Below are positions 18,356 through 20,113 of a stretch of DNA of 64,000 bases, piece by piece. The DNA lies in assembly GCA_016223145.1 (NCBI GenBank), contig JACRPN010000010.1, forward strand, positions 1-64,000, given 5' to 3'. The number at the start of each line of letters is the position of its first letter. The first letter of the stretch is position 1. Below the pieces are notes generated by a model. That model had not been told where the DNA came from. It saw only the letters and a list, made by a program, of their open reading frames with translations, and did not search any database. The translations under genes and the position numbers were made by a program. Source of the DNA: Armatimonadota bacterium (GTDB lineage: Bacteria; Armatimonadota; Fimbriimonadia; Fimbriimonadales; Fimbriimonadaceae).

Positions 18356-19131
18356 ACCACCTTGAGCACATCTTGGAGGCCAAGCGGCTGGAGGTTCAGT
18401 CGGCCAAAGCTGAAGTGTCTTTCGCTGCGGTTGAGCGTGCCGCGCTCGCCGTCGATGCTCCTCGCGGGTTCCTTCGATCGCTTCGGGCTGCGGCCGACAT
18501 TGGCTTGATCGCCGAGGTGAAGGCGGCGAGTCCGTCGCAGGGGTCCATCCGAGCGGACCTGGACCCTGTTCGTGTGGCGCAAGCTTATGAGCGGGCGGGG
18601 GCGCAATGCCTGAGCGTGCTCACGGACCGGGAGTTCTTCAAGGGCTCGGTGGAGAATCTGGTTTTGGCGCGTGCGGCGACCCGGCTGCCCGTGCTTCGAA
18701 AGGACTTCATGCTCGAGCGCTATCAGGTCTATGAGTCGCGGGCGATGGGCGCGGACGCGATCCTTCTTATTCTCGCTGCCTTGCCCGACGCGGAACTGGC
18801 CGCTTTGAACCAACTTGCGCGGGAATTGGGCATGGACGTGCTGGCTGAGGTCCACGACGCCGCCGAGCTTCGCCGAGCCCTGAACCTGGGATTCGATCTG
18901 ATCGGTGTGAACAACCGGAACCTGTCGACTTTCGAGGTCGATCTAGCCGTCTCGGAGACGCTGATCCCGGGGATCGGGAATGCCGCGCTTGCTGTGAGCG
19001 AGAGCGCACTGAAGACCAGGGAGGACATCGACCGGGTAAAGGCTGCCGGCGCGGGAGCGGTCCTGATCGGGACGACGTTTTGCTCGGCGCCGGATATCGA
19101 GGCCATGGTGCGCGAGGTCATGGCTTGGTAA
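18352..19131 (+). CDS. trpC: Indole-3-glycerol phosphate synthase
   Basis: 259 residues, ATG overlapping the trpD stop (ATGA). A (beta/alpha)8 barrel with all conserved blocks: RGFLRSLR, LIAEVKAASPSQGSI (catalytic Glu and Lys), LTDREFFKGS, VLRKDFMLERYQVYESR, IGVNNRNLSTFEVD, and SESALKTREDIDR before the phosphate-binding GAGAVLIGT. It closes the indole ring from CdRP. Confidence 0.97.
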   Translation: MNHLEHILEAKRLEVQSAKAEVSFAAVERAALAVDAPRGFLRSLRAAADIGLIAEVKAASPSQGSIRADLDPVRVAQAYERAGAQCLSVLTDREFFKGSVENLVLARAATRLPVLRKDFMLERYQVYESRAMGADAILLILAALPDAELAALNQLARELGMDVLAEVHDAAELRRALNLGFDLIGVNNRNLSTFEVDLAVSETLIPGIGNAALAVSESALKTREDIDRVKAAGAGAVLIGTTFCSAPDIEAMVREVMAW

Positions 19132-19739
19132 AGGTCAAGATTTGTGGGCTGACCCGGCAAGAAGACGCCGAACTGGCGGTGGAGCTTGGCGCGTTCGCGG
19201 CTGGGTTTGTGTTCGAGCCGACGAGCCGGCGGTATGTGGGGTCTCAACATTGGAGCCCGGCGTGGCTTAAGGGACTCGCCGCCGAGGTTGTTGCGGTGCA
19301 TGGCACTGCCCCAGCACCGTTGCCCAAACTCCCGTTCTCGGCGGTGCAATCCATCGAATGGCCGCACGGTGTGGCTTGTACCGGCGCTCAGATGCGGATC
19401 AAGGTCGTGCGTCCCCGGGCAGGTCGTGATCTAGCCGCTGCTGTTGCCCAGGCCGAAGGCTTCGACTGGGTCTTGCTCGACGCCTATGATCCCGAGCAGT
19501 TTGGCGGCACCGGAAAGTCCGTTGACTTGGAGCTAGCTCGCGACGTGGTGGCAGGTCTGCGTGGGGCCCATCCGTGCTGCCAGATTGGGCTCGCCGGCGG
19601 ACTAACGCCGGGGAACGTAGCGCGGGCGGCACAATCCGTTCAGCCGGACTATGTGGATGTAGCGAGCGGTGTGGAGTCGTCGCCCGGAGTCAAGGACGCT
19701 GAGAAGATGAGGGCGTTTTTTGGGGCGCTTGGACGCTAG
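19125..19739 (+). CDS. trpF: Phosphoribosylanthranilate isomerase
   Basis: 204 residues from TTG 19125, which overlaps the trpC end by seven bases; upstream codons only repeat the trpC tail in another frame. Motifs: VKICGLTRQEDAELAVELGA (catalytic Cys), LLDAYDPEQFGGTGKSVD (catalytic Asp), LAGGLTPGNVARA, VDVASGVESSPGVKD. It performs the Amadori rearrangement between TrpD and TrpC. Confidence 0.95.
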   Translation: MVKVKICGLTRQEDAELAVELGAFAAGFVFEPTSRRYVGSQHWSPAWLKGLAAEVVAVHGTAPAPLPKLPFSAVQSIEWPHGVACTGAQMRIKVVRPRAGRDLAAAVAQAEGFDWVLLDAYDPEQFGGTGKSVDLELARDVVAGLRGAHPCCQIGLAGGLTPGNVARAAQSVQPDYVDVASGVESSPGVKDAEKMRAFFGALGR

Positions 19740-19754
19740 GACATCATTGCCACA

Positions 19755-19796
19755 GGGCGAAGGGCGAAGGGCGAAGGGCGAAGGGCGAAGGGCGAA
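19755..19796. repeat. Heptanucleotide tandem repeat (GGGCGAA) x 6
   Basis: Six exact consecutive copies. CCACAGG (19750-19756) and CCTGTGG (19807-19813) flank the array as an inverted pair. A second wordy stretch built on CTCAAAT and CAGATTTCA follows at 19829-19876. This starts a 568-base gap without a gene (19740-20307), which otherwise holds the candidate RNA below; nothing clear is seen from 20114 to 20290. Confidence 0.9.
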
Positions 19797-19960
19797 GGGA
19801 GCCGAACCTGTGGGATCCGCGAGTTGGTGATCTCAAATCGCAGCTCTCAAATCTCAAATTCCAGATTTCAGATCTCAAGTTGCGTGTAGTGCTCGCCGAG
19901 CGTCGCTCATGGGGAGCCGAGCATCGCGCATCACCCATCGCGTCAGCAGGGGGCACAAAC

Positions 19961-20006
19961 AAAAAAATGTGGGAAGGCTGAAAGGAGAGCAAAGCACCTT
20001 CCCACA
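19961..20006 (-). terminator. Intrinsic terminator of the candidate small RNA
   Basis: On the minus strand TGTGGGAAGG and CCTTCCCACA form a perfect ten-base stem (20006-19997 with 19977-19968), followed by seven T residues (19967-19961). It faces away from fliM and can serve only a minus-strand transcript. The A-run on the plus strand precedes the stem, so it would not end trpF transcripts in the same way. Confidence 0.85.
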
Positions 20007-20078
20007 AGGCTTCTTCCAAGGCTTGACCTCTAGTCGTTGGGGATAAATCCCATTGCAAGGTCCGAGACTCTTGGCGTG
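19961..20078 (-). ncRNA. Candidate small RNA (unassigned family)
   Basis: On the minus strand an extended -10 promoter (20113-20084) is followed by about 118 nt that end in a strong intrinsic terminator, with no conserved protein inside. Nested pairings are visible: CCAAG with CTTGG, GACCT with AGGTC, and a TGGGAT/ATCCCCA hairpin, which together form one extended arm. A second possibility pairs the 5' AGCAC with GTGCT beside the terminator stem, competing slightly with it. A seven-residue open frame (MGFIPND) begins in the inner hairpin but has no ribosome site. It does not show the SRP GGAA-loop motif, the tmRNA tRNA-like end, or obvious 6S conserved blocks. Confidence 0.5.
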
Positions 20079-20083
20079 CTGTT

Positions 20084-20113
20084 ATTATAGCAGGGGATTT
20101 CCAAACCTGGCAG
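20084..20113 (-). promoter_or_regulatory. Extended -10 promoter driving the candidate small RNA
   Basis: On the minus strand TGCTATAAT (extended -10 with consensus TATAAT at 20089-20084) is preceded at 18 bases by CTGCCA (20113-20108, four of six). Predicted start about 20078. Confidence 0.65.

Follow-up and report, generated by a model that had tools for sequence, protein, structure and literature searches.

A candidate small RNA family of Armatimonadota with a near-invariant, anti-Shine-Dalgarno-like loop on its terminator

Results

A predicted small RNA convergent with trpF

On the minus strand of the window, by which we mean the whole 64,000-nucleotide stretch of DNA analysed here, a promoter, two nested helices and a Rho-independent terminator hairpin lie convergent with trpF and together outline a predicted small RNA. 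The features are as follows.

19080-19739, plus strand: trpF (Pfam PRAI), convergent neighbour of the sRNA
20113-20084, minus strand: promoter, read directly (-35 CTGCCA at 20113-20108, 18-nt spacer, TG-extended -10 TATAAT at 20089-20084)
19961-20077, minus strand: predicted sRNA, type A, about 117 nt, with its 5' end (about 20077) inferred from the promoter
20074-20070, minus strand: helix P1, 5' strand CCAAG, pairing with 20020-20016
20062-20057, minus strand: inner helix, 5' strand GACCTT, pairing with 20030-20025
20030-20025, minus strand: inner helix, 3' strand GAGGTC, pairing with 20062-20057
20020-20016, minus strand: helix P1, 3' strand CTTGG, pairing with 20074-20070
20006-19996, minus strand: terminator stem, 5' strand TGTGGGAAGGT, pairing with 19978-19968
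19995-19979, minus strand: loop GCTTTGCTCTCCTTTCA, near-invariant, containing the anti-Shine-Dalgarno-like CTCCTTT; proposed pairing seed
19978-19968, minus strand: terminator stem, 3' strand GCCTTCCCACA, pairing with 20006-19996
19967-19961, minus strand: T7 terminator tail, proposed as the U-tail contacting Hfq (T run of at least five in 86 of 90 instances)

An earlier note on this DNA had described an extended -10 promoter on the minus strand with CTGCCA at 18 bases, and this is what is read directly at those positions; it is one of two such promoters in a 5-kb scan, where 0.6 would be expected from shuffling. The span of about 118 nt given there between promoter and terminator agrees with the predicted transcript of about 117 nt, and the ten-base stem with seven T proved to be a stem of 11 pairs (10 Watson-Crick pairs and a closing U-G) around a 17-nt loop, followed by T7. 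A terminator scan missed this hairpin for the sole reason that its loop is longer than 8 nt. The placement between trpF and fliM is likewise correct, but only the trpF side is conserved: the convergent linkage of the sRNA with trpF is kept in most family-1 (f1) and several f5 genomes, whereas fliM adjoins the RNA in the window genome alone and was therefore dropped as a functional clue. A little beyond trpF, at 19754-19799, the window also holds a perfect tandem array of the 7-mer AGGGCGA (6.6 copies).

Covariation supports the structure

Because the folding energy of the window RNA is only modestly low (z = -2.0) and weak evidence by itself, the case is carried by comparison with relatives. 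Compensatory changes in related genomes, which the earlier note had proposed as a check, were found in its helices. In 24 diverse terminator hairpins, 9 of the 11 pairs show two-sided compensatory changes, and none of 500 shuffles was as good; when the partner strand was slid by 1-3 columns, the share of paired cells fell from 97% to about 37-52%. Aligned over their full length, 19 type A sequences support the terminator as well as P1, the inner helix and a short helix of two pairs, with two-sided changes in 17 of 23 pairs (4 of 5 in P1 and 5 of 5 counted pairs in the inner helix) and again no shuffle in 500 as good. Sliding the partners by 1-3 columns also destroys pairing support here, a control biased in favour of the structure since the structure was derived from the same 19-sequence alignment on which it was tested; the compensatory counts are unbiased. 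The nested pairings CCAAG/CTTGG (20074-20070 / 20020-20016) and GACCT/AGGTC (20062-20058 / 20029-20025) that had been seen by eye are thus real and covary in relatives. An alternative AGCAC/GTGCT pairing proposed alongside them was rejected as a switch, since AGCAC (20080-20076) straddles the predicted transcription start and the pairing is not kept in relatives.

The family is essentially confined to Armatimonadota

Conservation in relatives, whose absence the earlier note had regarded as telling against the RNA, is present across the family and the order. BLAST detected conservation outside the window genome with E values down to 1e-22, and a DNA search of 61 related genomes placed the RNA in two genomes of the same genus and in many further members of the family and order, the similarity of these copies dropping away outside the terminator. 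A covariance model of the terminator hairpin (R1) matched 80 of the 113 class genomes and 100 of the 291 phylum genomes, with 1-6 matches per genome, and found none in the other 33 genomes of the class; these genome counts are approximate, since several matches of about 31 bits and below were unconvincing on inspection (for example L102, L136, L137, L143, L150 and L151). Most f1 genomes hold one R1 copy and f2 genomes up to six. A second model, R2, matches the window at 98.9 bits, the window sequence itself being part of the model. Most relatives' loci share one layout, in which the loop GCUUUGCUCUCCUUUCA sits on a terminator hairpin, the 5' domain varies and a TATAAT-like box precedes the loop by about 91-101 nt; among 41 type A relatives, 76% carry a -10 element with at least 5 of 6 matches upstream, against 17% of shuffles.

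In 84,980 named genomes, a search for this loop with a T-run behind it returned 79 stretches. Stems of 10-12 pairs lie on contigs labelled Armatimonadota or unnamed bacterium, except in three metagenome-assembled genomes, and one Armatimonadota copy (L223) has a single mismatch in its stem. Pattern matches in other phyla form stems of 0-6 pairs and seem to be due to chance. With long stems found nearly only on Armatimonadota, the family appears essentially confined to that phylum. The three exceptional contigs are labelled Methanoregulaceae (L219), Anaerolineales (L177) and Patescibacteria (L166). The first label looks wrong, as the L219 sequence is the same as that of an Armatimonadota genome, G013; the comparison offers no such explanation for L166, and we consider that the three labels are probably wrong or the bins mixed.

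None of the known families tested accounts for the RNA

A search with all Rfam models, likewise proposed earlier, gave no family at the gathering threshold of Rfam 15 for this RNA, either in the window or among its relatives. Its exclusion by eye as SRP or 6S RNA held up under testing, since SRP, 6S and this RNA occupy separate loci. The best SRP match of the window genome lies elsewhere, on contig C12 (37.5 bits, below the Rfam cut-off), and in the relative G038 this RNA lies apart from a full-score SRP gene; 6S RNA (RF00013) has no match at the locus, and G038 carries its 6S gene on contig C3 and this RNA on C22. Identity with cyanobacterial Yfr1 was rejected as well, because the undecanucleotide ACUCCUCACAC between two stem-loops is absent and the loop here is CUUUGCUCUCCUUUC on the terminator. 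Phage records gave no match to the sRNA. By descent, the Armatimonadota RNA is none of the known families tested.

With promoter, covarying structure and terminator conserved across the phylum and no Rfam match, the idea of an undescribed small RNA that has a promoter and terminator of its own is borne out as far as sequence comparison reaches. A conserved structured RNA exists at this locus almost certainly, and the locus is very probably transcribed as an independent sRNA. We consider it very likely that the candidate is a real small regulatory RNA and the first-seen member of an undescribed Armatimonadota family.

The terminator loop is near-invariant and resembles the anti-Shine-Dalgarno sequence

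While the earlier note's small RNA is supported, its most telling part had been missed there, namely a near-invariant, anti-Shine-Dalgarno-like loop. The 15-nt loop CUUUGCUCUCCUUUC, which contains CUCCUUU, is nearly invariant among instances: positions 8-14 (CTCCTTT) are essentially fixed in 90 instances and the ends vary slightly, an invariance that is overstated to the extent that these instances were partly ascertained by loop sequence. The variable stems of the same 90 instances offer a fair contrast to the fixed loop. Variants relax the UUUG side first, and the flanks are nearly as fixed as the anti-Shine-Dalgarno core. Invariance over 15 nt goes beyond the need of generic Shine-Dalgarno pairing, for which the flanks are unneeded.

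The relative G041 has CTCCTTT at its 16S 3' end as well (GGATCACCTCCTTTA), a reading made outside the window genome's home family-1 set. Allowing one mismatch, no 16S 3' end was found in the window genome with the pattern GGCTGGATCACCTCCTTT, and the 16-nt pattern TGGATCACCTCCTTTC matched none of the relatives G001, G002, G009 and G012; either the 16S gene is missing from the window's metagenome-assembled genome, or the family has a different tail.

In the consensus, the conserved loop is unpaired and complementary to ribosome-binding sites. In 316 start regions the complements of the loop core (AAGGAG, AGGAGA and GGAGAG) are 5-11 times commoner upstream of starts than inside genes, on small counts, and hexamers complementary to the loop flanks, such as AGCAAA, show no enrichment upstream of starts.

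Hfq and candidate targets

Of 31 genomes checked, the window genome included, 29 encode hfq; Hfq was not found in the assemblies G039 and G045, both of which carry the sRNA. The T7 terminator tail is compatible with binding to Hfq. Searches for loop complements with GAAAGGAGAGCAAAG, AAGGAGAGCAA-N0-7-ATG and AAAGGAGAG-N1-9-ATG each returned few sites, mostly before different genes, and in these pattern searches no gene had a conserved, extended complementary ribosome-binding site. The few repeats included an orthologous exported protein in G001 and G002 (L269, L270) and a pair of small membrane proteins that resemble each other (L249, L266) and are DUF1328-like by eye. A single highly complementary target was rejected because sites are rare and mostly non-orthologous. 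For leaders of flgM-like genes, pairing with the loop is roughly level with that of the top 5-6% of start regions, which is not significant.

Two forms of the RNA and a possible link to sigma-28

Type A, the window's form, occurs in families f1, f3 and f5. Type B, found in f2, f3, f4, f5 and other classes, is shorter, has a conserved CGAGUUCACCUUCCUUCC segment before the same hairpin and carries a second anti-Shine-Dalgarno-like segment, UCACCUUCCUUCC. Type B copies have a TAAAG-N15-GCCGATAA-like promoter, with 67% reaching a score of 10 of 13 or higher, compared with 6% of shuffles; for type A, a sigma-28 promoter (TAAAG-N~15-GCCGATAA) was rejected, as this score is reached by 2% of copies, which does not exceed the shuffles. 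In f2 the sigma-28-type motif is enriched over a reversed control and precedes a Pfam-confirmed flagellin (L304), and at L305, L311, L315 and L320 it is followed by a c-di-GMP-I riboswitch and then by a small gene that is flgM-like by eye; Pfam gave no flgM confirmation for the gene after these leaders. For type B the sigma-28 assignment has support but falls short of proof, and it does not extend to the RNA of the window itself. The type B promoter suggests that at least some members of the family are probably made together with flagella.

The f2 genomes hold further elements. Paralogues with slightly changed loops occur at L099, L104, L105 and L110. At L306, L310, L313, L314 and L318, a conserved leader (GCGACAGGGTACAGGTTGACC...TTGGTCGCACCTCCCCTACCCC) follows a sigma-28-type motif, in several cases upstream of a cysS-like gene; most copies contain a CCCCCTGCGG/CCGCAGGGGG-like hairpin, the leader has no Rfam match, and it is possibly another undescribed RNA. 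Near-identical small hairpin RNAs recur two or three times within one f2 genome (L100/L101, L106/L107, L111-L113), with a loop region CTTTGATCCTCCTTT and with GGAAAGC...GCTTTCC AAGGGCGAAATA; they share upstream sequence and are perhaps further anti-Shine-Dalgarno RNAs or a mobile element.

Discussion

Our reading starts from the conserved locus, the covarying structure, the near-invariant loop, the recurrent promoters and the presence of hfq, and from these we infer transcription, Hfq binding, repression and targets. We think it probable that this is a family of trans-acting, probably Hfq-bound sRNAs whose terminator loop would pair with ribosome-binding sites and block translation. A free-standing type A sRNA of about 117 nt would be transcribed from its own sigma-A-type promoter and end at a Rho-independent terminator, and this terminator hairpin would double as the working part, presenting the loop CUUUGCUCUCCUUUC single-stranded on top of a covarying stem. 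Through its core CUCUCCUU, the loop could then pair with AAGGAGAG-type sites in the Shine-Dalgarno region of its target mRNAs, probably with the RNA bound to Hfq by its U-tail, so that ribosome binding would be blocked and chosen messages switched off. The same loop-on-terminator module sits on different 5' domains, both within one genome and across the phylum. The anti-Shine-Dalgarno mechanism itself, drawn from the anatomy of the RNA, seems to us rather likely.

The loop may also have a protein or one dedicated RNA as its partner, given that Shine-Dalgarno pairing does not account for the invariance of its flanks. It is this feature, the conservation of all 15 loop positions beyond the anti-Shine-Dalgarno core, that speaks for a protein ligand or sponge, in which the pyrimidine-rich loop would titrate one protein in the manner of 6S or CsrB-type RNAs without pairing to mRNA, as does the failure of the pattern searches to find a conserved mRNA target with extended complementarity. 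We nevertheless judge such a role unlikely, given that the most fixed part of the loop is the anti-Shine-Dalgarno-like core, that its variants yield on the UUUG side first and that no candidate protein is known. The CTCCTTT common to the loop and the G041 16S 3' end, together with the second such segment of type B, would also suit mimicry of the 16S anti-Shine-Dalgarno tail, by which the RNA would compete broadly with ribosomes for Shine-Dalgarno sites rather than act on chosen mRNAs; with one to a few copies per genome this would need very high abundance against ribosomes, and the invariant UUUGCU flank has no 16S counterpart, which makes mimicry quite improbable.

The position a short way downstream of trpF in most family-1 genomes raises the question whether the hairpin is merely a convergent terminator of the trp operon, conserved since termination matters. 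A terminator would not need a fixed loop sequence, only the minus strand carries a T-run (just 5 of 90 copies have an A run on the opposite side), a minus-strand promoter and a covarying 5' domain are present, and the same loop is found away from trpF in type B and others; we hold this explanation to be very improbable. Hardly any weight falls on a repeated mobile hairpin of the REP kind or on chance similarity, which the several copies per genome in f2 might suggest, since the RNA is single-copy and syntenic in family 1 and has promoters, covariation and different 5' domains.

The regulatory reading, pairing of the terminator loop with ribosome-binding sites, has parallels in other phyla. Yfr1 of cyanobacteria is a phylum-wide sRNA with an ultraconserved unpaired motif containing UCCU, 5'-ACUCCUCACAC-3' (PMC2190773), and in Yfr10 this motif occupies a hairpin loop of RNAs that are little conserved elsewhere (PMC6778093), much as one loop recurs on different 5' domains in Armatimonadota. 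The Yfr1 motif lies between two stem-loops, whereas the Armatimonadota motif is the terminator loop itself; motif and phylum differ, and the likeness is functional, with no claim of homology. The rhizobial sRNAs SmelA075 and SmelA099, whose CCUCCUCCC hairpin loops form a conserved anti-Shine-Dalgarno motif on variable stems (PMC3927594), resemble the present RNA in this combination of loop and stem, but have three to four hairpins per RNA and another loop sequence and belong to the alphaproteobacteria. Small RNAs under flagellar control include UhpU, MotR, FliX and FlgO of E. coli and CJnc230 and CJnc170 of C. jejuni, of which CJnc230 has a putative anti-Shine-Dalgarno stretch and represses flgM (PMC10578931, PMC11187230). 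Type B, with its sigma-28-type promoter, is comparable to these, whereas the type A of the window has a sigma-A-type promoter; a sequence relationship is lacking. Judged by sequence and structure, the sRNA family appears to be genuine and undescribed, and to belong to a functional kind already known from Yfr1/Yfr10 and the rhizobial CCUCCUCCC-loop sRNAs.

A wider view can be put forward tentatively, as a possibility we would still bet against: an anti-Shine-Dalgarno terminator loop on several unrelated 5' domains, under housekeeping and flagellar sigma-28 promoters, may be a phylum-wide module of a shared-seed network that couples motility to translation, and a common further partner may preserve all 15 nt of the loop.

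Armatimonadota are a phylum known mostly from metagenomes, and a search of the open literature, which was not exhaustive, found no paper on their sRNAs. As far as could be found in Rfam 15 and that literature, this would be the first described regulatory sRNA family of the phylum, with a distribution that parallels that of Yfr1 in cyanobacteria. With a seed in the terminator loop, several forms per genome and one of them apparently wired to the flagellar sigma factor, the family would offer a concrete and testable entry into post-transcriptional control in Armatimonadota.
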